Below, one piece after another: positions 274 through 19,640 of a stretch of DNA of 55,703 nt (its first letter is position 1; every line of letters begins with the position of its first letter). The position numbers and the translations under genes are program-made. This DNA is from an uncultured Verrucomicrobia subdivision 3 bacterium (GTDB lineage Bacteria > Verrucomicrobiota > Verrucomicrobiia > Limisphaerales > UBA8199). The notes beneath the pieces are model-generated. The model did no database searches. It was not told the origin of the DNA and was given only the letters and a program-made list of their open reading frames with translations. Location of the stretch: contig CAIWMU010000192.1 in NCBI GenBank assembly GCA_903913865.1, positions 1-55,703 on the forward strand, written 5' to 3'.

Positions 274-2007
274 GTGAAGACCGCTTCCACCAACCTCGGT
301 GAGGTTCTCACCACGGCCATGCGTGCCGTTGCCAACGCCAACGACGAGCTGCGCGGCGTGTTCACCGTGGATTGGAACCAGCCGGCGCCCGACGGCAGCG
401 GCAAGCCCCTCATCCCGAACGAGGTCGTGCACGCCCTCATCCAGCACTTCGACGAGCACGACCTCTCCAATGCGAGCGTCCCGGCGGACATCCTCGGCCG
501 GGCTTACGAATACCTCATCAAACAATTCGCCGACGATGCTGGCGCCAAGGCCGGTGAATTCTTCACCCCGCCGCTCGTCGTGGACACCCTCGTTTGGATT
601 CTCGAGCCGCAGCCCGGCGACTCCATCTACGATCCCACTTCCGGCAGCCTCGGCATGTTGATCCACTCCGCCGATTACCTGGTCGAGCATGGCCACCATC
701 CGACCGCCGCCACCTACTTCGCCCAGGAAATGAATTGGGGCAACGCCGCCATCGGCAAAATCAACTCCGTCCTCCACGGCCTTGAGGCAAAAATCGAGGC
801 CGGCCGCAGCACCATCACCGACCCCGCCTTTACCGAAAACGGCTCCGTCAAAAAGTTCTCCCTCGTCCTCGCCAATTTCCCCTTCTCCGACGAATTCTGG
901 TGGTTGAAACCCGAGCAGCAGACGGACGATAAGAAAAAGAAGGATAAACTGAAAAAGGAAACCTTTAGCAAGGAGGGCTACAAAGACTCCTACGGCCGCT
1001 TCGGTCGCGGCACACCCTTCCGCGCTCCGCCTGCGGGCTACGGTGACTACGCCTTCATCCTCCACATCCTCGCCTCCCTCACAGACGACGGCCGTGCCGG
1101 CATCGTCTGTCCCCAGGGCGTCCTCTTTCGCGGCCAGCCCGAGGTCGAAGAGGAGACCGGCGAGTTTGATGATGACGGCAATGCCATCGTCAGACGCCGC
1201 AAGGCCGACGACGAGCACATCATCCGCAAGTCCCTACTCGATGCCCATCTTGTTGATGCTATCATCTCCCTTCCTCTGAACGTCTTCTACGGCGCCACCG
1301 TCCCCGCCTGCCTGGTTATCCTCCGCAAGCAGCGCCCCAAGGCCCGCCGCGACCAGGTCCTCATGGTTTACGCCGCCCGTCACTACCGTGAGCTCTCTGC
1401 CCAAAACGAACTCCGCCCGCAGGACGTCATGCGGATACTCGTTCACTACCACGCCTACGGCGAGGCCGGTAAAGTCCCTAAGCTGGTCAAGGAGCTCAGC
1501 GCCCGCATTCGCAAACAAATTGACCTGCGCGAAGAGGATGAAGTCGGTCGCTTTGAAGCCGAGTACAAACCTCACATCGACAAACTGACTGCCCTTCCCA
1601 CTGAAGTTTCTGAGGCTAAAAGGGCGGCCATCGCCTCCGTGGTCACCAACCTCGAAAGGCAACGTGAGAAAATCAACGCGAAAATCGCCGAGCGCGACGA
1701 AAAAATCGCCGAAGCCCGCCGCCGCGCCAGCGACGACCGCCGCGACGTGCAGGCCGTCGGCACAGAATTGGCGTCCCTATACGCCGACGCCGATAAGCTC
1801 CTCAAACACGTCCGCGTGGTGGAGTTGGAAGAAATTGCCGAGAACGAGTTTAACCTCAACATCCCCCGCTTTGTGGACACCTTCGAACCAGAACCGCGTG
1901 TTGAAATAAAGGACGCCCTCAAGGCGCTTGGCGACGCGGAGACCGAACTCGCACGCGCACAAAAGCAACTTTCCACCATGCTCAAAACCATCGGGTATGA
2001 AGACTGA
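274..2007 (+). CDS. hsdM: Type I restriction-modification DNA methyltransferase subunit HsdM (N-terminally incomplete)
   Basis: HsdM transfers a methyl group from S-adenosylmethionine to adenine in the site chosen by HsdS, and is part of both the methylase (M2S) and restriction (R2M2S) complexes. From the GTG at 274 the protein has 577 residues. Visible motifs are GEFFTPP (94-100), the SAM-binding motif I DPTSGSLG (120-127) and the catalytic motif NFPF (201-204), an N-P-P-F variant. The last 150 residues are charged and likely helical, as in HsdM tails that contact HsdS. Coding similarity extends upstream to about 130 without a start codon, so the N-terminal helical domain is at least partly missing. 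The start at 274 is only the first available codon. It overlaps hsdS by 11 bases. Confidence 0.88.
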   Translation: MKTASTNLGEVLTTAMRAVANANDELRGVFTVDWNQPAPDGSGKPLIPNEVVHALIQHFDEHDLSNASVPADILGRAYEYLIKQFADDAGAKAGEFFTPPLVVDTLVWILEPQPGDSIYDPTSGSLGMLIHSADYLVEHGHHPTAATYFAQEMNWGNAAIGKINSVLHGLEAKIEAGRSTITDPAFTENGSVKKFSLVLANFPFSDEFWWLKPEQQTDDKKKKDKLKKETFSKEGYKDSYGRFGRGTPFRAPPAGYGDYAFILHILASLTDDGRAGIVCPQGVLFRGQPEVEEETGEFDDDGNAIVRRRKADDEHIIRKSLLDAHLVDAIISLPLNVFYGATVPACLVILRKQRPKARRDQVLMVYAARHYRELSAQNELRPQDVMRILVHYHAYGEAGKVPKLVKELSARIRKQIDLREEDEVGRFEAEYKPHIDKLTALPTEVSEAKRAAIASVVTNLERQREKINAKIAERDEKIAEARRRASDDRRDVQAVGTELASLYADADKLLKHVRVVELEEIAENEFNLNIPRFVDTFEPEPRVEIKDALKALGDAETELARAQKQLSTMLKTIGYED

Positions 2008-3289
2008 ACCGCGCCCGAAAATGCTTCGTTGGGCGCACTTGCCGGAGTGCGAGGCACCCGTGGCCGGGTGGCACGTCAGGAATTTCTCGGAGGTCGCCCA
2101 AGTAATCGCTGGACAATCGCCGCCATCGGAAACCTACAATAACAATTCCGAAGGCCTTCCCTTCCTTCAAGGCAACGCCGACTTTTCGAACAAATACCCC
2201 TCCCCAAGCGTCTGGTGCAGTTCGCCAGCCAAGACCGCCCAAGTTGGCGACACGCTCATCAGCGTTCGTGCGCCTGTTGGGGAAGTTAATCTCGCCGATC
2301 GAGATTACGCTATCGGTCGCGGGCTCGCGGCAATCCGCGCGACCGACTCAAACGCCGGTTTCATTTACCACGCCTTGCAGCGTTGGCGCTGGTGCCTTCA
2401 ACGGGTTGCTCAAGGCACAACCTTCGACGCCGTTACAGCGCGCCACTTTTCTCAACTCCATGTTGCCGTGCCGTCCGACCCCGCTGAACATGCCGCCATC
2501 GCCCGCCTCCTCGACACCTTGGACACTGCTCTGCAGCGCACCCGCTCTGCTACCGCCCGAGCACGAGAACTCGACCATTCCCTCCTCCACGACCTGCTCG
2601 AGAAAGGGCTTGGTCCAAACCGCAACGGCAAGAGGAGGTGGCCCGCCCACTGGAATCCCCGCCGCCTGGATGACCTCGCAGAAGTCGGCTCCGGCGTCAC
2701 GCTCGGTAAAGATGTTTCCGGCTTCAAGAACGTTGAGCTGCCCTACCTCCGCGTCGCCAACGTCCAGGACGGCCATCTCGATCTATCGGAAATCAAGACC
2801 GTGCGCGTCCGCGTTGACGAAGCTCCGAATTTCCGTCTCGAAACCGACGACGTGCTGATGACCGAAGGAGGCGACCTCGATAAACTCGGACGAGGCACCA
2901 TCTGGGAAGGCCAGATTCCTGATTGCCTCCACCAGAACCACATCTTCCGCATTCGTGCCAACCGGAAGCTTTTGATTCCGAAGTTCTTCGCCCTGGTCGT
3001 TGAATCGGATATTGCCAAACGCTACTTCAACCGCGTTGCCAAGCGCACCACCAATTTAGCCTCGACCAACAAGACCCAGGTTCGCGCCTTCACGTTCCCC
3101 CTGCCGCCAACCCTGGACGAGCAGCGCCAAATTTCCGACATCATGAAAGCCGCCAAAGCCAAGATCGCCGCACTAGTCGAAGAGGAAAAAGCTTTGGCTG
3201 AACTTAAGAAATCCCTCGCTCACGATCTCCTCACCGGCCTCGTCCGCATCCCCATAAACACCAAAACCCACCATGACACCCCAAGTTGA
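1997..3289 (+). CDS. hsdS: Type I restriction-modification specificity subunit HsdS
   Basis: HsdS recognises the two halves of the bipartite target sequence and holds the methylase and nuclease subunits. The 430-residue protein shows the usual two target-recognition domains: the first starts near GWHVRNFSEVAQVIAG and the second near WPAHWNPRRLDDLAEVGSG. Each ends in a helical spacer; the second has LDEQRQISDIMKAAKAKI followed by a heptad-like helix ending in LAHDLLTGLVRI. The ATG at 1997 overlaps the end of hsdM (stop 2005-2007), which suggests translational coupling; an ATG at 2021 is an alternative. The open frame extends upstream inside hsdM but that part does not resemble HsdS. The recognition sequence cannot be read from the protein by eye. 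Confidence 0.9.
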   Translation: MKTEPRPKMLRWAHLPECEAPVAGWHVRNFSEVAQVIAGQSPPSETYNNNSEGLPFLQGNADFSNKYPSPSVWCSSPAKTAQVGDTLISVRAPVGEVNLADRDYAIGRGLAAIRATDSNAGFIYHALQRWRWCLQRVAQGTTFDAVTARHFSQLHVAVPSDPAEHAAIARLLDTLDTALQRTRSATARARELDHSLLHDLLEKGLGPNRNGKRRWPAHWNPRRLDDLAEVGSGVTLGKDVSGFKNVELPYLRVANVQDGHLDLSEIKTVRVRVDEAPNFRLETDDVLMTEGGDLDKLGRGTIWEGQIPDCLHQNHIFRIRANRKLLIPKFFALVVESDIAKRYFNRVAKRTTNLASTNKTQVRAFTFPLPPTLDEQRQISDIMKAAKAKIAALVEEEKALAELKKSLAHDLLTGLVRIPINTKTHHDTPS

Positions 3290-4766
3290 CATTTCCAAAC
3301 TGAGCTTTGGTGCGCCCGCAGCTGAGCGCGATATTAACCAAGGGCTAATACACTACTTCGTTGAATCCGACACCTTCGCCCAGTTGGTAAAGCGCACCAA
3401 AACCCTCATCCTTGGTAACCGTGGCGCGGGGAAAAGCGCCCTTTTCAAGGTCTTTGCAGACCGCGAACGGAAAAAGGGGAGCTTGGTTTTGGAGCTCGCA
3501 CCCGAAAATTACTCCTATGAAATACTTTCGCAGCAAATGGCAAAGGAAGCCGAAGGGGCATGGAGAAAGCAAGGCGCCTACGCCGCAGCCTGGAAGTACC
3601 TTATCTACGTACTGGTCATGAAAGAGATCACGAGCTCCGGTCCAAAGCTCAAATCCGGGAGCGCAGCCGTGGTTTACAATTACTTGCGTGATACTTTCAA
3701 AGGTGAGCAGACCAACCCCATCGGCCTCCTCATATCGTACCTAAAACGCATGGAGGGCATAAAGATCGGCCCTTATGAAGCCAGCGTGAAAACGAAACAG
3801 CTAACTGGCCTTTACCACTTGGAGGAAATTAACGATCTCATCCCAGCAATCAACGAACTTTCCGAAAAGCGCGCCGTGGCTGTCATGATTGACGAACTTG
3901 ACCGCGGGTGGGACGCATCCGAAGATGCTAAAGCCTTCGTAGCTGGACTGGTCCAAGCTGCTCTCTCCATAAACGACAAACACAAGAACCTCTGTATCTT
4001 CGTCTCCTTGCGCAGAGAGCTCTATGACAGCATCCCCTCTCTCTACGAGGACGCACAGAAATACCGCGACGTCATGGAAACCGTCCGATGGGATGAGGAA
4101 AGCCTGCTTTCCCTGGCCGCCAAACGCATCCGCCATACGGCTCCAGAGACCACCAATTTGCCCGACCGCGATTGCTGGAACAGCGTGTTCGCCGAAACCC
4201 TACAGTACCGCAAGAGCAACTCCTTCAACTATATTGTGGATCGCACGCTTTACCGACCCCGCGAAATAATTCAGTTCTGCACCGCCACTCTGGACGAAAC
4301 CCGCAACACACGCTCACTGCCCCCCATCGACTACCACGTCATCAGCCACTGTGAAGTAACCTACTCGACAGAGCGCACCAAGGACATCGCCGCGGAGTAC
4401 CGATTCCAATACCCCGGCCTGCAAAGCATTTTCGAAGCTTTCAGAGGCAAGGGGTATTCATGGTCCCGGAAGGAACTCGACACTCTCTTTCTCCAAATGA
4501 GCCTCGGTGAGATCAAGCTGGACAAACTGGCCACATGGGCTGCCGGCCAAGAACCTGAGTTTTTCATGGACATTCTCTGGCGCGTCGGCTTCCTGCGGGC
4601 CCTTGCGGTCGGGGGTGTCAAGGCCTTGCGCAGGAGCGGCAGCCAGCACCTCGGGCCGCATCAAATTGACACCCTTAGTCTCCACAATATCGAAAGATTC
4701 ACGGTCCATCAGATGTTCCGGGCCGGCCTCGGGATGAAAGAGATCAAGGAGGCCCGAGATGATTAA
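3273..4766 (+). CDS. P-loop ATPase (Sll1717-like) within the hsd operon
   Basis: This 497-residue protein has a clear Walker A motif GNRGAGKS (48-55) and a Walker B-like stretch VAVMIDELD (202-210), as in STAND/AAA-type ATPases. A later segment, FNYIVDRTLYRPREIIQFC, resembles the P-loop ATPases of the Sll1717 family; I recall this from family sequences and have not searched. No nuclease motif or membrane segment is evident. The ATG at 3273 lies inside the end of hsdS (17-base overlap), and the stop is only 6 bases before hsdR, so it is cotranscribed with restriction genes. A regulatory, sensing or effector role in phage defence is an inference from position. Its base composition looks less GC-rich by eye than the flanking hsd genes, suggesting it joined the operon separately. 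Confidence 0.72.
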   Translation: MTPQVDISKLSFGAPAAERDINQGLIHYFVESDTFAQLVKRTKTLILGNRGAGKSALFKVFADRERKKGSLVLELAPENYSYEILSQQMAKEAEGAWRKQGAYAAAWKYLIYVLVMKEITSSGPKLKSGSAAVVYNYLRDTFKGEQTNPIGLLISYLKRMEGIKIGPYEASVKTKQLTGLYHLEEINDLIPAINELSEKRAVAVMIDELDRGWDASEDAKAFVAGLVQAALSINDKHKNLCIFVSLRRELYDSIPSLYEDAQKYRDVMETVRWDEESLLSLAAKRIRHTAPETTNLPDRDCWNSVFAETLQYRKSNSFNYIVDRTLYRPREIIQFCTATLDETRNTRSLPPIDYHVISHCEVTYSTERTKDIAAEYRFQYPGLQSIFEAFRGKGYSWSRKELDTLFLQMSLGEIKLDKLATWAAGQEPEFFMDILWRVGFLRALAVGGVKALRRSGSQHLGPHQIDTLSLHNIERFTVHQMFRAGLGMKEIKEARDD

Positions 4767-4772
4767 CCCCCT

Positions 4773-6098
4773 ATGAGCGAAGCCGCCTACGTCGAAATGC
4801 CCGTCATCAACTGGATGTGCGGCGAACAACCCACGCCATACCGCACCGGCGGCGCCGGCGGTGGCGGGGCCGGGTCCGGCCTGGGCTGGACCTACCGCGA
4901 CGAAGCGGCGATGGCCGCCTTTGACCGCCCGCTGGAGGACCCGCTGGTCGAGAAGATCCTCATCGCCCGACTCAAGGCCATTAACCCCGAGGTCAAAACC
5001 GACGCCCAGGCAAAGCTGGCGGTCAACGCCCTGCGCAAAACCATGTCCCACCCGGACAAACTCACCGCCAACCGCCAGACCCTTGACCTCCTGCGCGATG
5101 GCGCAAAGGTGGCTCTCAATCCCGGCGAGGTCACTCGAACGGTCCAGTTCATTGAATTCGACCCTGCACGGCAGAACCAGAACGACTTCACTGCCACGAA
5201 CCAATACCACGTTCAGGGCATGAAACAATGCCGCGAGGACACCGTCATGCTCATCAACGGCATCCCCCTGGTCATCGCCGAATACAAGAGCTACCTTGCC
5301 AGCGGCAAGGACTGGCGCGAGGCTGTCCACCAGTTGCACCGCTACCAGCGCCAGGCGCCGTTCATGCTCACCCCCAACGTCTTCTGCATCGCTGCCGATG
5401 AGGAGGAATTCCGCTACGGCACCATCCTTTTTCACGACGCGAGCAAGGAAGATGTCGAAATCCACATGGATAATTGGGGCCGATGGCTCAGCCTTTACCC
5501 GGACGTGAAAGGCTGGTGGAACACGCCCGCTGCCGAGAACCCGGACGATCCCCTCGAAACCCCGGTCAAGGGCCTGCTCCGCCTCAAGCCCTGTCACGTC
5601 CTCGATTTCCTCCAGCACTTCGTCGTGTTCGAGACCAAGAAGGGCAACACGGTCAAGAAGGTCGCCCGCTACCAGCAGTTCGAGGCCGCCAACGAGTTGG
5701 TCGCGCGCACCGTCTCGCTCATCGGCCAGCCCGTCCAGCCTCAGGAGCGCACCGGGCTGGTCTGGCATACCCAGGGCTCCGGCAAGTCCATCACCATCAT
5801 CAGCGCTGCCTATAAACTCCGCCGCCATCCAGCCCTCAACAACCCCACGGTCCTGATCATCGTTGACCGCCGGGACTTGAAAACGCAGATCAGCGACGAC
5901 TTCGAAGCGTGTGATTATCCCAACATCGAAAAGGCCCTCGGGGTTCAGGACCTGAAGCAGAAGCTCCGCACCGGCTGGCGAGGTACCTTGGTGACCACCA
6001 TCCAGAGCTTCCAGCAAATGGAGGACCTTGACCCAATTGATCGGGACGACATCATTTGTCTGGTGGATGAGTGCCACCGCACCCAGAAAGGTAAATAG
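4773..6098 (+). CDS. hsdR: Type I restriction enzyme HsdR, N-terminal fragment of a split gene
   Basis: HsdR is the ATP-driven translocase and nuclease of type I systems. This 441-residue fragment carries the nuclease domain, with D156 and E170-x-K172 (in EDTVMLINGIPLVIAEYK) forming the D...ExK site. It then has Walker A QGSGKS near residues 334-339 and the motif II box DECH (432-435). It stops seven residues later at TAG 6096-6098, where intact HsdR would run on to the TGTP motif. The continuation is in another frame from 6101. Together the two parts give 1066 residues, a normal HsdR length, so this is one gene broken by an indel of net +2 or -1 bases, or a sequencing/assembly error. Alone, this piece lacks half the motor. 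Confidence 0.88.
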   Translation: MSEAAYVEMPVINWMCGEQPTPYRTGGAGGGGAGSGLGWTYRDEAAMAAFDRPLEDPLVEKILIARLKAINPEVKTDAQAKLAVNALRKTMSHPDKLTANRQTLDLLRDGAKVALNPGEVTRTVQFIEFDPARQNQNDFTATNQYHVQGMKQCREDTVMLINGIPLVIAEYKSYLASGKDWREAVHQLHRYQRQAPFMLTPNVFCIAADEEEFRYGTILFHDASKEDVEIHMDNWGRWLSLYPDVKGWWNTPAAENPDDPLETPVKGLLRLKPCHVLDFLQHFVVFETKKGNTVKKVARYQQFEAANELVARTVSLIGQPVQPQERTGLVWHTQGSGKSITIISAAYKLRRHPALNNPTVLIIVDRRDLKTQISDDFEACDYPNIEKALGVQDLKQKLRTGWRGTLVTTIQSFQQMEDLDPIDRDDIICLVDECHRTQKGK

Positions 6099-6100
6099 CT

Positions 6101-7978
6101 ATGCCCGGAGACAGTTACGCCCTCACAATGCGCGCGAAGCTGCCCAAAGCGTTCCGTTTCGGCTTCACCGGCACGCCCATTGACAAGGCGATGCAGAACA
6201 CGCATCGCGACTTCGGCCCCATCAAAGACGGCGAGCAGGAACGTTATATCAGCTATTACGGCATCCGCCGTGCCATCAAAGATGGAGCCACCCTCGAGGT
6301 CCATTACATTCGAGATAAGGTCCCCTTCAACGTGGACGAAAAGGCGCTCAACATCGGCTTCGAGAAGATGTGCGAAGAAATGGAGCTCGAGGACGAGGAG
6401 GCAAAGGACCTCATCCAGCGCCAGAAATCCAGTTGGAAGGAACTCGCCCGCGACCCGCGCCGCATCGACCTCCTGCTAGATAAGATGCTTAAGCATTTCC
6501 TCGAACATCCCGATCCGAATGGCTTCAAGGCCCAGCTGGTTGCGGTGGACCGCAAAGCCTGTGCACTGTACAAGATGGCTCTGGACGCGAAAATCAAGGA
6601 GTGGACCCAGAAGCCGGATTACAAGGAACATGGCCTGCACCCCGACTGGACCGAGGTCATCATTTCCGCCGCCCAAAACAGCGAGCCGGATATTGCCCGC
6701 TTTGAATACGAGAAATCCAAGCAGGACGACCTCATTGACTATTTCAAGCTCACCCCCACCCAATGGGAAGCTTGTAACAAGGAACGGTTCGGCGACGACC
6801 GTTCCAAGTGGCGGCCACCGTTGAAAATCCTGATCGTCTGTGACCGCCTCCTCACCGGGTTCGACGCCCCGGTCGAGCAGGTCATGTACCTCGATAAGCC
6901 GCTCCGCGATCATAATCTCCTTCAGGCCATCGCGCGGACAAACCGCCCGCTCCCCAGCATGAAGAAGCGCACCGGGGTCGTCGTAGACTACTTCGGCGCG
7001 TTCGACAAACTCGAAAAGGCCCTCAACTTCGATGAAAATGTCAGCGAGGAGTCCCTGATCGACTGGGATGCCCTCCGGGGGACGATCCCGGGCGCTGTGT
7101 CCTTGTGCATGGAGTCGTTCAAGGGCGTAACGATTGCCGACACCCGTGAATGCCTGCTCGCCGCCCTCCGTGGCCTCCGCGAAGCAGAGGCCGCCAAGCG
7201 CTTTGAACAGAATTTCAAAAGCCTCGAGCGCCTCTGGGAGGCCGTCTCTCCCGACCCGTGTCTGTACGACTATCGCCAGCAGTACAATTGGCTCTGCTCC
7301 ATCTATGTCGCCTACCGCCGCCGCCTGCGCGGCAGCCGCAACACCTACGGCGAGCTCGCCGCCAAGACCCGAAAGCTCATCCAGGAAAATACGACCTTCA
7401 TGCAGATCGCCGACTCCCTGCCGGTGTTCAAGATCGATGAGAATTACATCAACCGCCTCGACGACCTCCCTTCAGCATCGGATAAAGCTGCCGCCCTCGA
7501 AGCCGCTCTAACGGCCGAGCTATCCGAGGATGATCCTGGCTTCATCTACCGCCTCCTCGGGGAGCGGCTCCAAAGGCTCAAGGAGCGTAAGGATGCCAAT
7601 GATACCGCCGCCGCTGAGAGGCTTCGTGAGCTGGAGGCCATTGCCGCCGAAAAGCTCAAACTTAAACAGGAACCCCAACGCCTCAATTTGATCCGCCCGG
7701 GCGAGCATGCCCTGTTCACCGTTTTGCGCACGCACTCCAAATCCGTCGAGGAAAACTACGTCGCCGACTGCGCCCGCAAAATGGTCGCCCACCTCCGCGC
7801 TAGCGGAGTGCTCTCGCCGGGCTGGAGTAACTCCAAGGGCGGACTCATGCGCGTCGAGCAATCCCTCCTCGCCGAGTCATGGAACGTCGCTTATGCCGAC
7901 TTGGGCTTTGATCCCGAGAACTACGAACCGCCATTCCTCAAGCTGGCAGTGGCCGAACTCGCCAAATCCGACACCTGA
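6101..7978 (+). CDS. hsdR: Type I restriction enzyme HsdR, C-terminal fragment of a split gene
   Basis: This 625-residue open frame continues HsdR from just after motif II. It starts at an ATG two bases after the stop of the N-terminal part and contains motif III as GFTGTPID (about residues 21-28). It also has the second RecA-like lobe with LIVCDRLLTGFDAPVEQVMY and LLQAIARTNRP (motifs V and VI), followed by the helical C-terminal region that binds the methylase. The junction shows no strong ribosome-binding site and no obvious slippery heptamer, so independent translation or programmed frameshifting is not supported. Without a fused N-terminal half it has neither Walker A nor the nuclease site. 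The stop codon overlaps the next gene (TGATG at 7976-7980). Confidence 0.87.
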   Translation: MPGDSYALTMRAKLPKAFRFGFTGTPIDKAMQNTHRDFGPIKDGEQERYISYYGIRRAIKDGATLEVHYIRDKVPFNVDEKALNIGFEKMCEEMELEDEEAKDLIQRQKSSWKELARDPRRIDLLLDKMLKHFLEHPDPNGFKAQLVAVDRKACALYKMALDAKIKEWTQKPDYKEHGLHPDWTEVIISAAQNSEPDIARFEYEKSKQDDLIDYFKLTPTQWEACNKERFGDDRSKWRPPLKILIVCDRLLTGFDAPVEQVMYLDKPLRDHNLLQAIARTNRPLPSMKKRTGVVVDYFGAFDKLEKALNFDENVSEESLIDWDALRGTIPGAVSLCMESFKGVTIADTRECLLAALRGLREAEAAKRFEQNFKSLERLWEAVSPDPCLYDYRQQYNWLCSIYVAYRRRLRGSRNTYGELAAKTRKLIQENTTFMQIADSLPVFKIDENYINRLDDLPSASDKAAALEAALTAELSEDDPGFIYRLLGERLQRLKERKDANDTAAAERLRELEAIAAEKLKLKQEPQRLNLIRPGEHALFTVLRTHSKSVEENYVADCARKMVAHLRASGVLSPGWSNSKGGLMRVEQSLLAESWNVAYADLGFDPENYEPPFLKLAVAELAKSDT

Positions 7979-8715
7979 TGCGAGCCGCCGACACCAGCAC
8001 CATCCAGCTATCGGACCGGAAGGTTGAGTACCAGGTCAAGGCCTCAAGGACTGCGAAGAAACTCCGTATCCGTGTCGGACCGCATGGCGTCCAGGTCGTC
8101 CGCCCGGCTGCCCGGCCAGTTGACGACATCCCTCCTTTCCTCCGACGGAACGAGGACTGGCTTCTTCGGGAGCTCGCTCGTGCCGATACTCTCCAGCCAG
8201 CGCTCAAACGTCGGAAACACCGCGACAGCACCATCAGCTTTCGCGGCAGCAACACCCCCGTGCGTGTTGCCCGCTCCGTCTCCAAGCGGGGCCAAAACAA
8301 GGTCGCCTTCGAAAATGGCGAAATTCTCATCACCCAGCCTGCGGGCTCGCGCACGCCGCCGGCGCGCAGCCTTGAGAACTGGCTCCGAAAGCAAGCCCGG
8401 GCGGCCATTCAAGCCCAGCTTCAAGCCGTTCTGCCGCGCGTCCGGCGCTCCCCCGGCAAATTGTACGTGATGGACCAGCGTACCAAGTGGGGTAACTGTT
8501 CCGCTCTGGGAAACCTCTCTTTCAACTGGCGCCTCATCATGGCCCCCGATTTTGTTCTGCGCTACCTCGTCACGCACGAGGCGGTCCATCTAGCCATCCC
8601 GGACCACTCGCAAAAATTCTGGCTCACTGTCCAAAGTCTCTGCTCCGAGACCGAGCGCGCCCGCCAATGGCTCGTCGCCCAAGCCCACCGGCTTCTGACG
8701 CCGCTGCCCTTTTGA
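7978..8715 (+). CDS. YgjP-like (DUF45/M48-type) zinc metallopeptidase
   Basis: This 245-residue protein has the zinc-binding HExxH motif as HEAVH (H200, E201, H204), inside YLVTHEAVHLAIPDHSQKFW, where a third ligand would be the later histidine. It also has the family hallmark KWGNCSALGNLSFNWRL, known from YgjP/SprT-like metallopeptidases. The N-terminal third is basic and without a signal peptide, so it is cytoplasmic. Peptidases of this kind are frequent passengers in type I restriction loci; what they cut there is not known to me. The ATG overlaps the hsdR stop by one base, and the next gene starts 19 bases downstream. It may regulate turnover of HsdR or another partner, but that is inference from location. 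Confidence 0.85.
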   Translation: MRAADTSTIQLSDRKVEYQVKASRTAKKLRIRVGPHGVQVVRPAARPVDDIPPFLRRNEDWLLRELARADTLQPALKRRKHRDSTISFRGSNTPVRVARSVSKRGQNKVAFENGEILITQPAGSRTPPARSLENWLRKQARAAIQAQLQAVLPRVRRSPGKLYVMDQRTKWGNCSALGNLSFNWRLIMAPDFVLRYLVTHEAVHLAIPDHSQKFWLTVQSLCSETERARQWLVAQAHRLLTPLPF

Positions 8716-8734
8716 ACAAGTGCCAAAACCACAC

Positions 8735-10501
8735 ATGGGAACCACAGCAAATTTCTCAGTTGATCCTCGTTTAGCCTCCGTTCTTGGCGAGAATTACAAT
8801 TCCAGCGAGCGTGCCCTGCGGGAATTGGTTGACAATGCTTGGGACGCGGAGGCCAGGGTGGTCAGAATCACCCTTCCAGATATTTTGACGGAAGGGCCAA
8901 TCGTCATTGCTGACGACGGCAGCGGCATGAAGGAACAGGAGTTGCGCCAAGAATATCTGAAGATCGCGAGCCCACGCTTCAAGCGCAAAGGTGAGAAGAC
9001 TCCCAACCTTCAGCGAACGGTCAAGGGTCGCAGGGGCATTGGCAAGTTTGCAGGCCTCATACTTGCCGAGAACATGGAGGTGGTCACCAAGGCCCATGGC
9101 ATAGAAACGTGCTTGCTCATTTCGAAAGCCGCCCTGTTGGGCACCGGAAAGGACATCGAACAGATTCCTCTCCCCATCGCTGTAATTAACTGCGAAGCCA
9201 AAGAACACGGTACGACGGTTACCCTTAGGGTGTTGAATCAGAATCTGAATTATCCAAAAGCCGAAAGACTTCGGGAAATTCTCGCCTACGATTTTGGACG
9301 GGAGGCCGATTTTCAGATTTTCATCAATGGTGTGCGCGTGCTTCGACACGATGTCCAAGGAACGACGTTCACGAAGGTCTACAACCTCTCAAATGGCAAG
9401 AAGGCGACCGCGACATACACCATCGCTGAGAAGCCTGTGCCTGGCCGCAGGGCTGGCCTAATCCTTCGCGTTGGCGAAAAAACGGTTGGACGGCCTCACC
9501 ACTGGGGATTGGAGCATGACGAGCAACTCAGTGACCGGCTCCGCAACAGGGCGGTTGGTGAGGTACAGGTGGACGCCGATGCGATCGAGTTAACTGCGGC
9601 AGGCGGCGACGTGATTGAAAGCGACAAGGCCTTGGAGGAATTGACAGGTCTTATTCAGCAGGATGTGAAGGCCAGTCTGGGTGGAATTCACGCCAACGAG
9701 GTAAAGCTGGCGAAGGGCCGATGGACTCAGTTGATGAACCGGCGTCTGGAAGCCGTCCCCGAACACCGCCGTGCGATCATTGAAGAACGACTCGAAAGAC
9801 TCATTTCTCGTTCGTACCAAGAAGGCGAAAATGAGGAGAGGATTACCGTTCTTGTTGGGTTGGTCATCGACGCGCTTGAAATGGATGAGTACTGGAAGGT
9901 GTGTCGTGAGATCGAGACCGCCGAGAAGGTGGACGTTTTCCATTTCGCCGAGGCCCTCGACAAATTTGGTCTGACAGATCTCGCGTTCATCGCGCAGCAG
10001 ACGAAGCGCCGCACCGAATTCCTCGACTATCTCGATAAATTGATCGCCGATCCGAAAACCACGGAGAAACAGATGCACCTGGCGTTGCAAAACAGCCTGT
10101 GGGTTTTTGGCACGGAATACAGCCTCATGGCCAGCAACCGTCAGCTGCGTAGCATAGTTGAGAGTTATACGCAGCAGAGCTTCGCAGGTGCCGATGGCGC
10201 GGACCGTCCCGACCTGCTCCTTGCGGCCAACGTGGAAAATAGGCACCTCTTGGCGGAGTTCAAACGGCCCTCCACTGTTGTGGGTAGGGATGCTGAAGCT
10301 CAGGCAAAAAAATACGCCGACACGCTGACGGGCAGGCTTGGGATCGAGTTTGAGATTTTCATTGTGGGAGGCGAGGTGGACCCGAAACTCCAACAGGAAT
10401 ACACTGGCAAACGCACCCATTTCCTCTCCTACAGCGCTATCAACGCCCGTGCGCGTAATCAACTCGAGTGGCTACTAAAGCAACTCAATCAGAAACCATA
10501 A
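8735..10501 (+). CDS. GHKL ATPase fused to a Shedu-like PD-(D/E)XK nuclease domain
   Basis: The N-terminal part (residues 1 to about 200) is a GHKL/HSP90-like ATPase. It has the N box ALRELVDNAWDAE (E30, D33, N34), the G1 box ADDGSGM (60-65) and the G2 box GRRGIGKFAG (98-107). A helical middle region follows. The C-terminal part has LQNSLWVFGTEYS and then RPDLLL...LLAEFKRPS, giving D493 and E508-x-K510 spaced as in PD-(D/E)XK nucleases. This arrangement recalls the DUF4263 domain of the Shedu defence protein SduA. The product would be a 588-residue cytoplasmic ATP-gated nuclease. ATG 8735 is preferred because MGTTANFSVDPRLASVLGE looks like a natural family start; GTG 8720 is possible. It is the last gene of the defence operon and looks intact. 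Confidence 0.8.
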   Translation: MGTTANFSVDPRLASVLGENYNSSERALRELVDNAWDAEARVVRITLPDILTEGPIVIADDGSGMKEQELRQEYLKIASPRFKRKGEKTPNLQRTVKGRRGIGKFAGLILAENMEVVTKAHGIETCLLISKAALLGTGKDIEQIPLPIAVINCEAKEHGTTVTLRVLNQNLNYPKAERLREILAYDFGREADFQIFINGVRVLRHDVQGTTFTKVYNLSNGKKATATYTIAEKPVPGRRAGLILRVGEKTVGRPHHWGLEHDEQLSDRLRNRAVGEVQVDADAIELTAAGGDVIESDKALEELTGLIQQDVKASLGGIHANEVKLAKGRWTQLMNRRLEAVPEHRRAIIEERLERLISRSYQEGENEERITVLVGLVIDALEMDEYWKVCREIETAEKVDVFHFAEALDKFGLTDLAFIAQQTKRRTEFLDYLDKLIADPKTTEKQMHLALQNSLWVFGTEYSLMASNRQLRSIVESYTQQSFAGADGADRPDLLLAANVENRHLLAEFKRPSTVVGRDAEAQAKKYADTLTGRLGIEFEIFIVGGEVDPKLQQEYTGKRTHFLSYSAINARARNQLEWLLKQLNQKP

Positions 10502-10508
10502 CTGAGAG

Positions 10509-10525
10509 CGTGAAACAGATTCACG
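10509..10525 (+). terminator. Weak hairpin after the defence operon
   Basis: A 6-bp inverted repeat (CGTGAA / TTCACG, loop ACAGA) lies 8 bases after the last defence gene. No T tract follows, so intrinsic termination is only possible. Confidence 0.25.
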
Positions 10526-10653
10526 AATAATCAGAATCGCAGCTTCGGCCGTCTCCATACTGGGGCGCCTGAGGGAGGTTGCCACATGGACAAGGCAATC
10601 CCACCTCCAAAGGTTCGAAAGGCGTAGCGCAGGGACGCATTGGTCCCCACAGT

Positions 10654-12087
10654 TTACTCCACCGGCTCAAGCCGCACCACTTTATCCGGCTTGTTCAGGA
10701 CGATGTAGAGGTAGCCGTCCGGGCCGGTGGCGGTTTGGCGGATGCGCCCGATTCCCCGGAACAGCAATTCCTGATGCACCACCTTGTGGTCATCAATGAC
10801 GAGGCGGCGATACTCCTCCTGCGCGAGAGAGGTCACAAACAGGTTGTTGCGCCAGTTGGGGAATTTATCGCCCGTGTAAAAATTGATGCCGCACACGGCG
10901 ATGGACGGGGTCCAGTGGGTCACCGGCTGCTCAAGGCCCTCCCCTGCGGTGCCTTTGCCCATGGGTGTCCCATCATAGTTCATGCCAAGGGTGATCAGCG
11001 GCCAGCCGTAATTCAGCCCCTTGCGGATCCAGTTCAGTTCATCCCCGCCGCGCGGGCCGTGCTCGGACTCCCAGATGTCGCCGGTGACGGGATGACGGGC
11101 CAAACCCTGCGGGTTGCGATTGCCGAAGCACCAGATGGAGGGGATCGCATTGGACCGGCCGACGAACGGGTTGTCGGAGGGGATGCGGCCATCCTCAAAC
11201 AGACGGTGGATCTTGCCATTGGGACGGGTCAGATCCTGGGCATCGGCCCCCATGCCGCGCTCCCCGATACCGAAGAAGATGTGTCCTGAATTGTCAAAAA
11301 CCAGTCTGGAGCCAAAATGGACAGCCGTGCTGCGGTAGGTCGAGAGCGGCGCCTTGAAGATGGTCTGCTCGTCCACCCATTGCCCATCGCGTATTCTGCC
11401 CCGGACAACGGCTGTCATGCCGACATTCTCCCCGGCGGCATTGGTGGCGCCATCGGAGAAAACCAGGTAAAGCCAGCCGTTTGTCTGATAGCCGGGGTGC
11501 GGGATGGCCTCCATCAACCCGCCCTGGCCGATGGTGCGGAATTTGGGCAGTCCCTGGACGGGGGGAGTCTGAAGATTGCCCTTGTCGAAGATATGCAGGT
11601 TGCCCGGCAATTCCGGGATCAGCATCCGCCCATCCGGCAGGAAGGCTACGGACCACGGGGTCGAAAGGCCGTCCACGACCGTGCGGGCACGGAATTTGTG
11701 CTCCTCGCTGGTGACGATCTGGTCGCTCACCGGTTTGGCATAAGTGGTCTGCTTGCGTTTGGCCTCGGTGACTTTCTCCCGGATGTAAACCACAAGGGAG
11801 TGGATTTCACCCTCATTCAGCATCCCCTTCCACGGCGGCATGCCGTTTGCCTCAACCCCGTTGCGGATCACGTTCTCGAGGCTGGCGTCGTCACCCCCGT
11901 GCTTCCAGACCCCATCCAGAAGGGTCTTTGCCTGGCCGCCCTGCATCTGGTCGCCATGGCAGCCCGCGCAGTTGTCCTTGAACAGGCGGCTGACTTCGCG
12001 GTCGGCAGCACCGGAGGTGTGCGTGGCGCACAGCAGCAGCGCAATCATCAGAAAGCGGATCGTGAACCAATTCAAAGACAGTCTCAT
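10654..12087 (-). CDS. Secreted cytochrome c / PQQ-dependent sugar dehydrogenase (YliI-like) fusion
   Basis: The 477-residue protein has a signal peptide (MRLSLNWFTIRFLMIALLL, cleavage near residue 28). A class I cytochrome c domain follows, with haem motif CAGCH (40-44) and probable axial Met83 in NGMPPW. The remainder is a six-bladed propeller of the soluble glucose/aldose sugar dehydrogenase family, with GNRNPQGLA and EHGPRGGDELN, segments that surround PQQ and calcium in this family. It should oxidise aldose sugars in the periplasm and pass electrons to its own haem and then to the respiratory chain. It is the last gene of a minus-strand run, 92 bases after the DUF4230 gene, so it may have its own promoter. 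Confidence 0.88.
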   Translation of the reverse strand: MRLSLNWFTIRFLMIALLLCATHTSGAADREVSRLFKDNCAGCHGDQMQGGQAKTLLDGVWKHGGDDASLENVIRNGVEANGMPPWKGMLNEGEIHSLVVYIREKVTEAKRKQTTYAKPVSDQIVTSEEHKFRARTVVDGLSTPWSVAFLPDGRMLIPELPGNLHIFDKGNLQTPPVQGLPKFRTIGQGGLMEAIPHPGYQTNGWLYLVFSDGATNAAGENVGMTAVVRGRIRDGQWVDEQTIFKAPLSTYRSTAVHFGSRLVFDNSGHIFFGIGERGMGADAQDLTRPNGKIHRLFEDGRIPSDNPFVGRSNAIPSIWCFGNRNPQGLARHPVTGDIWESEHGPRGGDELNWIRKGLNYGWPLITLGMNYDGTPMGKGTAGEGLEQPVTHWTPSIAVCGINFYTGDKFPNWRNNLFVTSLAQEEYRRLVIDDHKVVHQELLFRGIGRIRQTATGPDGYLYIVLNKPDKVVRLEPVE

Positions 12088-15288: not shown

Positions 15289-15317
15289 TTGAGTGGGTTT
15301 GGCAGATTTTGTATCAA
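15289..15317 (+). promoter_or_regulatory. Possible sigma70-type promoter for the exosortase operon
   Basis: TTGAGT (15289-15294) and TATCAA (15312-15317) are spaced by 17 bases, with four of six consensus matches each, 20 bases before the ATG at 15338. It lies in the divergent corA/exosortase interval. If real, it excludes the upstream GTG at 15293 as start. Confidence 0.35.
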
Positions 15318-15337
15318 ATGGTCTTGAGTTTGTAAGA

Positions 15338-16357
15338 ATGCAAATATCCCCCGATGTTGGGATCCTGGAGGAGTTCAGGATCAAGTTCACGGACGCCTGG
15401 TCAAGGCTGCCGAACCGGGGATTTTTCCTTGGGTTGCTGGCTGTTTGGATTCTGCTGTTCCATTTGTATGGGAATTCCGTCCAGGGATACATCAAGACGG
15501 ATTCGCTTTTTGCCTGGCTCTCGAATGCCTACAACCCGGTGGATGAGCATGCCATTGCGGAGGATGCGCACGGGAATCTGATCCCTTTTCTCGTTCTCGG
15601 TCTGCTTTTCTGGAAGCGGGACAGCCTGCTGGAGGTTCCGCTTCGGACCTGGTGGCCGGCTCTTCTGCTGGTTGCACTTTCACTGTTCATTCACGTCGTC
15701 GGCTATGCGGTGCAGCAGACGCGCGTGTCCGCTATGGGCTTTTTCTTTGGAATCTACGCATTGACCGGTCTGGCCTGGGGGCCGGGTTGGATGATCCGGA
15801 GTTTCTTTCCGTTTTTCCTGTTCGCCTTTTCGGTGCCTCTCGGATCCCTGGCTGAGACCATTAGTTTCCCGCTGCGCATACTAGTCTGCCAACTAGTGGA
15901 AGGTATCTCGCACTATGTCCTGGCGATTGACCTTGTGCGGGAGGGAACCCAGCTCAAGAACACGGTGGAGCATTATCAGTATGAGGTGGCGGCGGCCTGC
16001 AGTGGAATCCGGAGCCTGATGGCCACGGTTCTTTTGGGGCTGGTGTATTCATTTGTGGCCTTCTCCGTCTGGTGGAAGCGTCTGTTTGTGATTTTCATGG
16101 CCTTCCCGTTTGCAGTTTTGGGTAACCTGCTTCGGATGTTGATGATTGTGATCGCTGCGGAGCTGGGGGGTCAGTCTTTCGGGAACAAGGTGCATGACAG
16201 CACCTGGTTCAGCATGGTTCCGTATATTCCTGCCATCTTCGGTCTCTTCTTCATGGGGCGATGGCTCGGGGAGAACGAGGTTCCCCGAAAGGACGCACCT
16301 GTTCCAAAGCAGTCCACCGAAACGCCGGTGGCAGCAACAGAAAAGGAGGCCTTGTGA
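15338..16357 (+). CDS. Exosortase (EpsH/XrtA-like membrane transpeptidase)
   Basis: Exosortases are multi-pass inner-membrane cysteine enzymes that cut C-terminal PEP-CTERM-type sorting tags of exported proteins, usually in exopolysaccharide producers. This 339-residue protein has about eight hydrophobic helices. The catalytic residues are C221 (in VAAACSGIRSLM), R266 (in LGNLLRMLMI) and H286 (in KVHDSTWF). The C-terminal tail is hydrophilic (VPKQSTETPVAATEKEAL). ATG 15338 is preferred over GTG 15293. The gene overlaps the following EpsI-type gene by 4 bases (GTGA). No protein in this window has a recognisable PEP-CTERM tail, so the substrates are elsewhere or use another signal. Confidence 0.9.
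   Translation: MQISPDVGILEEFRIKFTDAWSRLPNRGFFLGLLAVWILLFHLYGNSVQGYIKTDSLFAWLSNAYNPVDEHAIAEDAHGNLIPFLVLGLLFWKRDSLLEVPLRTWWPALLLVALSLFIHVVGYAVQQTRVSAMGFFFGIYALTGLAWGPGWMIRSFFPFFLFAFSVPLGSLAETISFPLRILVCQLVEGISHYVLAIDLVREGTQLKNTVEHYQYEVAAACSGIRSLMATVLLGLVYSFVAFSVWWKRLFVIFMAFPFAVLGNLLRMLMIVIAAELGGQSFGNKVHDSTWFSMVPYIPAIFGLFFMGRWLGENEVPRKDAPVPKQSTETPVAATEKEAL
16344..16349 (+). promoter_or_regulatory. Strong ribosome-binding site fixing the GTG start of the EpsI-type gene
   Basis: AGGAGG ends 4 bases before GTG 16354, inside the end of the exosortase gene. It supports this GTG rather than the longer open frame beginning at 16261. Confidence 0.65.
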
Positions 16358-17091
16358 ACCGGCAAAATTGGATTCTGGCGGTTGTGGTCTGTCTCCTGAT
16401 TGTCGGCGCTGGAGGGATGATGGCGAGAATCAAATCGAGCCAGAAGCTTGGGGCTCCAGGTGTCAGGACAACAGCGATCGTGGGGAGCAACAGGCTGAAG
16501 GTGGAAGTTCCCGCTGGTATTTCTGGCTATACCTCAGAGTGGATGGATGTGGATGACCTGACCCGGCAAAGCCTTCCCAAGGACACGAGCTTTGGTCAGC
16601 GGCGTTACACCGGGTCGGATGGGTTTGAGACAGTCGCCAACGTCGTCCTGATGGGTGGAGATCGTAGCAGCCTGCACAAACCGCAGTTTTGCCTGACGGG
16701 TCAGGGGTGGGTTATCGATAACGATGCCTCTTCAGCCGATGTTTTGCCGATTACAGAGGGTGGTTCATACAATTTGCCCGTGGTCAAGCTGGTGGCCACC
16801 AAGGAGTTGAATCAAAACGGGCAGCGCGTGAAATATCGGGGCCTTTATGTTTATTGGTATGTGGCAGACGGGGTTGTCAGTGCCAGCACCACCGGGTTGC
16901 AGCGGATGTGGTGGATGGCCACGGACCTCCTGCGCACGGGTGTTCTGCAGCGTTGGGCGTATGTGAGCTATTTTTCCGTCTGCCAACCCGGTCAGGAGGA
17001 AGCCACGTTCGAGCGGATGAAGTCCTTGATCAAGGTGACGGTTCCAAAGTTTCAAAATCCACCCAAGGAAGCCCAGGTTGCCGGGAGGTGA
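16354..17091 (+). CDS. EpsI-type exosortase-associated protein (DUF3485-like)
   Basis: The 245-residue product begins with a membrane helix (WILAVVVCLLIVGAGGMMA) and has a periplasmic domain. The pattern LHKPQFCLTGQGW is the hallmark of the EpsI/DUF3485 family, where the H-x-P-x-x-C segment is conserved. The later VYWYVADG and MWWMATDLL are also typical. EpsI-like proteins accompany exosortases, either as separate genes or fused, and are needed for exopolysaccharide or sorting function in some species; their reaction is not known. Start is GTG 16354, within the exosortase stop (4-base overlap) and with an AGGAGG in front. Confidence 0.85.
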   Translation: MNRQNWILAVVVCLLIVGAGGMMARIKSSQKLGAPGVRTTAIVGSNRLKVEVPAGISGYTSEWMDVDDLTRQSLPKDTSFGQRRYTGSDGFETVANVVLMGGDRSSLHKPQFCLTGQGWVIDNDASSADVLPITEGGSYNLPVVKLVATKELNQNGQRVKYRGLYVYWYVADGVVSASTTGLQRMWWMATDLLRTGVLQRWAYVSYFSVCQPGQEEATFERMKSLIKVTVPKFQNPPKEAQVAGR

Positions 17092-17180
17092 TTTGACTTG
17101 CGGGAGATGTGTTAAGAATTCACACTCTCGTGCGTTGATGCTGCAATCGGGTGTAAGGGCAGGTGTGCCCCGTGTTTTAC

Positions 17181-17186
17181 TATAAT
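17181..17186 (+). promoter_or_regulatory. Perfect -10 hexamer upstream of the sugar transferase gene
   Basis: TATAAT lies 25 bases before ATG 17212 in a 120-base gap. The expected -35 position is a poor match, so it is only a candidate promoter; a TTGACT further up (17093-17098) lacks a good -10 partner. Confidence 0.3.
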
Positions 17187-17211
17187 TGTGATGATTGTGG
17201 AAAAGCTCTAA

Positions 17212-18603
17212 ATGCTTAGGAGAGACAGAGTTATACGCATGCAAATCCATGAACTCATGGATGCCTGCATCTTTGCGATTGCCTTCTGGCTGTCTTATAG
17301 CCTGCGTGCGGATCCCGGATTGGTTAGTTTTTTCAATTTGCCACCTGTCCAGCCTTTTGAAAAGTATGTCTGGCTCTATCTGGTGATCATCCCGCTTGGC
17401 CCGATGGTTTTGGAGGCACAGGGCTTTTACAACAGGCCGATGCTGTGCAATCGCGGGCTGACAATGTGGATGCTGTTCAAGGGATGTGGTCTGGCGACCC
17501 TTGGGCTGATCGTTTCCCTGTTTCTCTTCCGCTCTGAAGTGGCCCGGTGGGTTATTCTTTGGTTTGGAGCCATCAGCTTTTGTCTGATCTTGATCAAAGA
17601 GGAAATGCTGGCACTGACTTTCAAGACCAAGCTTGCCCAATCCCAATACCGTCGCCGGTTCGTTCTGGTCGGGTCGGATGAGGAGACGGACCGGGTGCGG
17701 GCCAGACTCAAGGCCCACCAATACAGTGGGATAGAGATTGTGGGGGAGTTCAGCCTCGGGAAACATCCGGTTGAGAAGCTGGTGGATCTGCTGCACGAGC
17801 ACTCGGTTTACGGGATCATTCTGACATCCCGCCATACCTTTCTGGAAAACATCGAAGCGGCGATCCATGCGTGCGAATTGGAGGGGGTGGAGGTATGGCT
17901 GGTGGCGGATTTGTTCCGGACGCAGATTTCCCGAACCAGCGTGGATGAATTTTGCGGCCAGCCCGTTCTGGTATTCCGGTCCGCTCCGGAGGCCTCCTGG
18001 CAGGGCATTGTGAAGCAGATGATCGACCTGCTTGGAGCCCTTTTCCTCCTGATTGTCTCGGGGATTCCGCTGCTGGTAATCGCTCTACTGATCAAAATCA
18101 CCTCCCCGGGGCCGGTTCTCTTCAGGCAACAGAGGTCTGGATTGAACGGGAAGCCGTTCACGATTTACAAGTTCAGAACCATGGTCAGCAATGCCGAGCA
18201 GGTGAAGCATGAGCTGGCGTCGATGAACGAGATGACAGGGCCGGTCTTCAAAGTGACGAACGATCCACGGGTGACGCGGCTGGGGAAACTTCTCAGGAAG
18301 TTCAGCTTGGATGAGTTCCCCCAACTGCTGAATGTGTTGCGGGGGGAAATGAGTCTGGTCGGGCCGCGGCCGCTTCCCGTGGATGAGACGAAGCAGTTTA
18401 ATGATCTGGCCCATCGGCGGCGGTTGAGTGTGAAGCCAGGGCTGACCTGCCTGTGGCAGATCAGCGGACGGAGCAACCTGACAGACTTCAAAGAGTGGGT
18501 CCGGTTGGATCTGCAATACATTGACAACTGGTCCATCTGGCTGGATTTGAGTATTTTGATCCGAACGATCCCTGTCGTCCTCTTCGGTTCCGGTGCCAAG
18601 TAG
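17212..18603 (+). CDS. Exopolysaccharide polyprenyl glycosylphosphotransferase (undecaprenyl-phosphate sugar transferase)
   Basis: This enzyme starts exopolysaccharide units by moving a sugar-1-phosphate from a UDP-sugar to undecaprenyl phosphate at the inner membrane. The 463-residue protein has four to five N-terminal membrane helices (1 to about 140) and a middle nucleotide-binding-like domain ([16 protein letters not shown]). Another membrane helix follows ([19 protein letters not shown]), then the C-terminal bacterial sugar transferase domain with [31 protein letters not shown] and [15 protein letters not shown]. These are the family's catalytic and substrate motifs. The sugar, glucose or galactose, cannot be told. 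ATG 17212 or ATG 17239 may be the start. It lies between the exosortase pair and a UXS-like gene, fitting one biosynthetic locus. Confidence 0.9.
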
Positions 18604-18644
18604 GATTGCGGCCATCTCGGAGGCTGGAGGGAGGGGTGTGTGCG

Positions 18645-19640
18645 GTGAATCTCGATGAACCTATGAAGACCAAGAAACCAACCAAGGCAGCAAAATTCAC
18701 AACCCGGCAACCACGGAGTGTCGTGACCGGGGCGGCAGGCTTTCTGGGCTCACACTTAACCGATTTACTGCTTTCCAAGGGACATTTCGTAATCGGTATC
18801 GATAACTTTGTCACGGGATCGGTCGATAACATCGCTCATCTGGGGGGTAACCCGAGCTTCAAGTTCATCCAGCAGGATGTGACGGAGTTCATCTTTTTGG
18901 AGGGGCCGGTGGATTACGTCTGGCACTTTGCCTCCCCGGCGAGCCCGATAGACTACCTCGAGTTACCCATTCAGACATTGAAGGTTGGCTCTCTGGGGAC
19001 CCACAAGGCCCTGGGTTTGGCAAAGTTAAAGGAGGCCCGGTTTCTGATCGCCTCAACATCCGAGATTTATGGGGATCCGCTGGTGCACCCGCAACGGGAG
19101 GATTACTGGGGCAATGTGAACACGATTGGCCCCCGGGGTTGCTATGACGAGGCGAAGCGCTTTGCGGAGGCGTTGACGATGGCCTACCACCGTGAGCACA
19201 AGGTGGAGACCCGGATTGTCAGGATTTTTAACACCTATGGCCCCCGGATGCGGCTGCATGATGGGCGGGTGGTCCCGGCCTTTATCAGTCAGGCACTCCG
19301 GAATCAGGCAATCACGGTCTTTGGGGACGGGAAGCAGACACGAAGCTTTTGTTACGTCTCGGATCTGATCGAAGGGATCTACCGGCTGATGATGTCGGAC
19401 GGCGCTGAACCGGTGAACATTGGCAATCCGACCGAGATGACGATGCTGGAGTTTGCACAGGAAATCATCAAAGCGACGGGTTCAAAAAGCCGCGTCGTCC
19501 ACAAAGCGCTGCCGCAGGACGATCCCAAGCAGCGGAAGCCGGACATAGGGCGCGCCAGGAAGCTTCTGGGCTGGGAGCCTAAGGTTTCGCTGACGGAGGG
19601 CCTGGTGAGAACGATAGAGTACTTCAGGAGCAAAATCTGA
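18645..19640 (+). CDS. UDP-glucuronate decarboxylase-like NAD-dependent epimerase/dehydratase
   Basis: The protein (331 residues from GTG 18645) is an extended short-chain dehydrogenase of the UXS type. It has the NAD-binding motif GAAGFLGSH and the [12 protein letters not shown] segment typical of UDP-xylose synthases. The catalytic pair is in [10 protein letters not shown] and YDEAKRFAE (YxxxK), with [10 protein letters not shown] and [12 protein letters not shown] later. It probably converts UDP-glucuronate to UDP-xylose for the exopolysaccharide made with the upstream transferase; a related nucleotide-sugar epimerase is the alternative. GTG 18645 has a purine-rich GAGGGG about 8 bases ahead; ATG 18663 is also possible. 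Its stop is followed by a hairpin that could end the operon. Confidence 0.87.

Follow-up and report, generated by a model that had tools for sequence, protein, structure and literature searches.

The window, by which we mean the whole 55,703-nucleotide stretch of DNA that was analysed, begins at the first base of its contig and carries in its first part six genes in a row on one strand: hsdM, hsdS, a gene for an Sll1717-family ATPase, hsdR, a YgjP-like gene and a gene for a protein that joins a GHKL ATPase domain to a Shedu-like nuclease domain (GHKL-Shedu). The hsdM gene (130-2007, + strand; N6_Mtase, E = 6e-71) lies near the contig edge and lacks its N-terminal part, the best methylase profile being entered at profile position 97 by residue 4 of the ORF counted from 274. 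Its reading frame meets a stop at 127-129, and because this stop precedes the edge, the contig edge alone is no explanation for the truncation. The hsdS gene for the specificity subunit (1928-3289, +; Methylase_S and Specificity_I) probably starts later than 1928, a position that sits within hsdM, and is separated from hsdR by the gene for the Sll1717-family P-loop ATPase (3273-4766, +; NF047389, E = 9e-80). The hsdR gene (4773-7978, +; TIGR00348) consists of two ORFs in different frames (4773-6098 and 6101-7978), which are contiguous on TIGR00348 (14-387 and 388-666); the break at about 6096-6101 falls inside the SWI2/SNF2 domain in this assembly and may be either an assembly error or a real interruption. 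The gene for a YgjP-like metallopeptidase (7978-8715, +; Pfam YgjP-like, E = 3e-44) ends 19 bases before the ATG of the GHKL-Shedu gene at 8735. A preliminary description of the locus had noted that hsdM and hsdR do not look intact while the GHKL-Shedu gene does, and this holds for the present assembly. Farther along the window (15293-19640), genes for an EpsH exosortase, a DUF3485 protein, a sugar transferase and an epimerase stand in a row and make up an exosortase/exopolysaccharide cluster.

The GHKL-Shedu (paraMORC3) gene, recognised from its ORF, HMM matches and orthologues, occupies 8735-10501 (+) and encodes 588 amino acids from the ATG. An alternative GTG start at 8720 would give 593 amino acids (ORF 8720-10501, +); we adopted the 588-residue version because the alignment of the relatives begins at about the ATG. 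A scan of 7800-10800 for a promoter or terminator of its own gave no more than shuffled sequence did. The gene may be co-transcribed with the type I operon without needing that operon.

A GHKL domain and a Shedu-type nuclease domain in one protein

The N-terminal part of the protein holds a GHKL (HATPase_c_3) domain at about residues 30-166 (8822-9232, +), identified by HMM (Pfam, E = 5.3e-25), motifs and fold matches. The GHKL boxes read earlier from the sequence are exact when counted from ATG 8735 (ELVDN at 30-34, DDGSGM at 60 and GRRGIG at 98), and the motif residues are E30/D33/N34, D60-G62-G64, R99-G101-G103 and G159-T160. In the AlphaFold2 model of the whole protein (mean pLDDT 76) this domain is followed by probable S5/transducer-like strands at about residues 209-279 (9359-9571, +), assigned from secondary structure, and by a helical middle region at about residues 298-438 (9626-10048, +), in which confidence is low at 385-415; the HMM search of the window protein matched no S5 model. 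Structure searches placed the whole model nearest to MORC2, MORC3, MORC4 and Hsp90 over residues 1-316, with the MORC2 alignments of VIA-align reaching from residues 7 or 8 to 316-319 at an rmsd of about 10.7. The best 50 matches of each of these listings were all GHKL proteins, with no Shedu among them. The 13 matches of a PDB sequence search were GHKL proteins and two N-glycosylase/DNA lyase rows (E about 0.5, residues 352-474), and the best 60 matches of a second such search were all GHKL proteins; no Shedu chain was among the matches listed in either.

Because the matches listed for the whole model were GHKL proteins with no Shedu among them, the C-terminal part was modelled and searched separately (169 residues, mean pLDDT 87). 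The PD-(D/E)XK fold foreseen for this part was borne out by VIA-align, which placed the model nearest to Shedu: its top match was the Bacillus cereus Shedu nuclease (8ti9; Z 12.8, rmsd 2.5, 140 residues), and the alignment with E. coli SduA (8ps4) gave Z 10.2 with an rmsd of 3.5 over 145 residues, EndoMS (Z 10.9) and N.BspD6I (Z 9.2) scoring in a similar range. Plain Foldseek gave nothing significant for the same model (no match at E ≤ 0.001, BbvCI being best at E 0.0029), and Shedu was absent among its best 50 matches.

Pfam SduA_C matches the window protein weakly (E = 0.041, 14.5 bits against a cut-off of 27), and the PADLOC SduA model PDLC00401 matches residues 416-471, which contain LWVFGTEY, at E = 7.8e-8. 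All nine sequences of an alignment that we call A1 matched both HATPase_c_3 and SduA_C at E ≤ 1 (best SduA_C E = 3.1e-6), and eight of the nine matched PDLC00401 at E ≤ 0.01; since these relatives score better, the C-terminal domain is identified more securely at the level of the family than in the window protein alone. From HMM matches, fold and conservation, we place a Shedu-type PD-(D/E)XK nuclease domain at 10064-10492 (+), with E444, D493, E508, K510 and Q523 as its key positions; the site residues named at the outset, RPD with D493 and E508-F-K510, were found exactly as given. The claim that a GHKL ATPase is joined here to a Shedu-like PD-(D/E)XK nuclease thus stands, on the HATPase_c_3 and 8ti9 matches given above.

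Conservation and distribution of the relatives

Conservation was followed across 22 aligned sequences: the window protein, sequences from eight verrucomicrobial loci, four plasmid loci and four viral contigs, and five distant sequences (20-23% identity), an E. coli phage ParaMORC3 among them. E30, N34, D60, G62, G64, G101, G103, D493, E508 and K510 are identical in all 22, so that the three putative catalytic residues first picked out in the window protein alone prove constant among the homologues. E444, Q523 and R99 are each kept in 21 of the 22, and D33 is an aspartate in the window protein and its 16 closer relatives (36-72% identical to it), 17 sequences in all, the five distant ones having A or S. 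We infer that E444 corresponds to the first E of the E-D-ExK motif described for paraMORC3 in 2008. The protein of E. coli phage PhiR44_1 that is annotated as ParaMORC3 (L048) is 22.6% identical to the window protein over residues 21-532 of the latter (E = 1.6e-18, 15 sequences searched). Left out of the alignment were L037, in which the frame breaks before the motif, L053, which matches residues 3-122 only, and L005, L006 and L007 as interrupted or shortened. The latter three, of which L005 and L006 are interrupted and L007 is without an internal part, are decayed or misassembled copies of the gene.

The gene is sporadic in genomes. At E ≤ 1e-60, GHKL-Shedu was found in 3 of 387 genomes of the phylum, the window's own included, and the other 61 of the 64 phylum genomes with a match gave weaker ones, mostly to the GHKL part alone; within one family it was found in 5 of 250 genomes. 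A match was also present in 41 plasmid records, proteobacterial plasmids among them, and on viral contigs. Because the orthologues lie on plasmids and viral contigs and are scattered among genomes, this distribution fits a mobile defence gene.

Six of the 41 plasmid records were examined, five of them close relatives (38-44%) and one distant (L042). The window hsd genes had no tblastn match in the five close ones. No R-M gene was present among the annotated neighbours in L037, where annotation is incomplete, and in the unannotated plasmids L040 and L041 tblastn gave no hsd match with either the window set or the neighbour set of queries, a search in which an R-M gene of another kind may have escaped notice; a Pfam scan of one downstream gene in L041 found no match. 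On two rhizobial plasmids (L038, 7015-9543, and L039, 7019-9547) the orthologue points away from a DEAD/DEAH helicase gene that is 2529 bases long in both, and the genes farther out differ, as far as the incomplete annotation shows; helicase and orthologue are a possible two-gene unit.

Restriction-modification genes near other copies

Eight verrucomicrobial copies, the window's included, share at least 59% identity and come with 3 kb or more of sequence upstream; the upstream DNA is shorter in L005 (0.4 kb), L073 (1.7 kb) and L006 (2.0 kb), which stand outside this set. An R-M modification gene lies upstream on the same strand and within 8 kb in six of the eight (five of seven without the window), a figure that covers the loci of this gene only. 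The modification gene is of type I in the window and in L002, where GHKL-Shedu ends a different type I operon and its start overlaps the stop of the preceding gene, and it is Eco57I/type IIG-like in the other four. Between this methylase and GHKL-Shedu lies an SMC/AriA-like ATPase gene in L003 (region 4574-9990), a shorter SMC/AriA-like relative with an IS630-type transposase and a weak HEPN match in L043 (2248-9842), a Drt4 reverse transcriptase gene in L071 (1-3016; the methylase is partial, at the contig start) and an AbiU-like gene in L072 (10059-19774, reverse strand). tblastn with the named queries detected no R-M gene upstream in L004 and L007. The SMC-like ATPases of L003 and L043 are 67% identical over residues 1-387, and these two loci may stem from one arrangement, since this gene is common to both. 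The directly upstream gene, on the other hand, differs in all six R-M-linked copies (YgjP, a 260-residue protein, the SMC-like ATPase, the weak HEPN match, Drt4 and the AbiU-like gene), and for this reason the neighbourhoods, read from gene order, fit a common tendency to settle in defence islands better than they fit a fixed partnership.

A possible reading of the six linked copies is that GHKL-Shedu serves as a modification-aware accessory nuclease for any resident R-M system and has been selected for the tails of R-M operons in Verrucomicrobiota. The retention of an SMC-like ATPase gene in between at both L003 and L043 would agree with this, as would the description of paraMORCs as found mainly in RM operons (Iyer et al., PMC2292703). 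We nevertheless consider it quite improbable, as the modification genes belong to two types unrelated to each other, the six different upstream genes are what a defence island would give, and the five close plasmid relatives lack a match to the window hsd genes. Moreover, the Eco57I-like gene was detected at E ≤ 1e-100 in 15 of the 250 genomes surveyed in one family and shared a contig with GHKL-Shedu in two of these (G375 and G451), whereas in the remaining 13 no GHKL-Shedu was found at E ≤ 1e-60; G458, where the contig ends within the methylase gene, is not in this survey listing.

The preliminary description pointed to a gated effector at the end of the type I restriction operon. Such a dedicated component, with HsdMSR and YgjP marking or sensing foreign DNA and GHKL-Shedu acting as an ATP-gated back-up nuclease, would be in keeping with the position of the gene on the same strand just behind the YgjP-like gene and with the L002 copy at the end of another type I operon. 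It finds no support in the comparison with other loci and is in our opinion very unlikely. Seven proteins of the window operon were compared by tblastn with 17 loci and then with three more, making 20 other loci, and HsdR, YgjP and the Sll1717 ATPase had no match in any of them; HsdM was matched only in L002 (22.7%) and L046 (27.4%), and HsdS only in L002 (25.4%). For the viral-contig loci L049-L052 the comparison was restricted to the neighbour set, in which YgjP came from the window and the rest from other loci. On this tblastn comparison, the YgjP-like gene is a neighbour and no shared partner of GHKL-Shedu. The C-terminal half of HsdR was matched in at least 201 of the 387 phylum genomes at E ≤ 1e-3 (up to three candidates scored per genome), and of the three genomes with a GHKL-Shedu gene at E ≤ 1e-60, in which adjacency was judged, only the window's own has the two side by side: in G375 some 356 kb separate the gene from the HsdR match on the same contig, and G045 has no HsdR match in this survey, which may have passed over weaker linkages elsewhere. 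The broken appearance of the R and M genes next to an intact GHKL-Shedu gene also speaks against a dedicated component.

That the protein is an orphan type II restriction enzyme of the BbrUII/HgiDII type (which has a GHKL N-terminus) whose methylase partner was lost is least credible of all, since the matches to NF050001 (E = 1.4e-37; strongest within the GHKL part, over no more than residues 21-213 in GTG numbering) and to PADLOC REase_II (E = 3.7e-17, residues 8-168) come with an NF050001 score of 129.6 bits against a cut-off of 550 and with a C-terminal fold nearest to Shedu.

Relation to paraMORC3 and type I-D Shedu proteins

The gene is best explained as a member of the paraMORC3/GHKL-Shedu group (Shedu type I-D according to the classification that PMC12137116 cites), that is, as a self-contained predicted anti-phage DNA nuclease, a reading to which we give a probability of roughly 0.87. 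It is a probable defence gene and one that probably travels singly. In the mechanism that we propose, ATP binding would pair two GHKL domains, and the dimer would close on DNA like the clamps of MORC, Hsp90 or MutL; ATP turnover would then position or release the C-terminal Shedu nuclease, which would cut invading DNA with D493, E508 and K510 as its catalytic site. The gene would have come to lie behind the type I operon through defence-island shuffling. A functional link to modification is possible, given that six of the eight copies, or five of seven when the window is set aside, have an R-M modification gene upstream. It could even be that the verrucomicrobial GHKL-Shedu genes are kept behind unrelated R-M operons because their products read host methylation or enzyme-made DNA ends and serve as a generic, ATP-clamped second cutter, an idea that we hold to be unlikely.

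The combination of GHKL and Shedu domains is already known, and the suggestion of a new kind of effector is not supported in view of the paraMORC3 proteins described in 2008 (PMC2292703) and of VcSduA and Shedu type I-D in 2025 (PMC12137116). ParaMORC3 proteins were defined by a GHKL domain, an S5 domain and a C-terminal RE-fold domain with E-D-ExK, a subset being standalone without conserved neighbours, and the main hosts named are proteobacteria and bacteroidetes (Iyer, Abhiman and Aravind, 2008; PMC2292703). VcSduA, a GHKL plus DUF4263 protein from the VSP-II WASA of Vibrio cholerae, protects against phage, an effect that was similar and robust at all MOIs tested and was lost in the E27A and K557A mutants (PMC12137116). 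The same report presents a dimer model in which the GHKL domain is proposed to control the nuclease, and places proteins organised like VcSduA, earlier annotated as paraMORC3, in Shedu type I-D (PMC12137116). E. coli SduA binds DNA ends by an N-terminal clamp, and the variety of domains found at the N-terminus may determine specificity (PMC12904381); the GHKL part would by analogy be one such module. Our analysis adds Verrucomicrobiota to the hosts of the GHKL-Shedu class, which was validated recently, and reveals no new kind of system; the 17 close sequences provide a set for studying the control that a GHKL clamp exerts over a Shedu nuclease.

Over residues 1-316 the window protein is like MORC2, MORC3 and MORC4 in having a GHKL domain and the domain that follows it, and unlike them in that MORC proteins are eukaryotic. 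To our knowledge, MORC2, MORC3 and MORC4 carry no such nuclease domain. While the N-terminal part resembles MORC and Hsp90, the likeness to Shedu is drawn from the nuclease domain alone, whose predicted fold is that of the Bacillus cereus and E. coli Shedu proteins (8ti9 and 8ps4). With paraMORC3 the protein has in common the GHKL domain, probably an S5-like module, the C-terminal RE-fold with E-D-ExK, the sporadic distribution and the standalone occurrence of a subset, and it differs from the 2008 hosts in that the window subgroup lives in Verrucomicrobiota and on proteobacterial plasmids. Like VcSduA, it is the product of a single gene and combines a GHKL N-terminus with conserved motifs, a middle region and a C-terminal PD-(D/E)XK domain that is probably of the DUF4263 kind; the host phylum is different, and the distance from the GHKL glutamate to the catalytic lysine is 480 residues here and 530 in VcSduA, going by the published residue numbers. 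Compared in this way, by description and published residue numbers, the window protein has the architecture of the GHKL-Shedu/type I-D class, in which the S5 domain and the Pfam SduA_C assignment are the less certain features.
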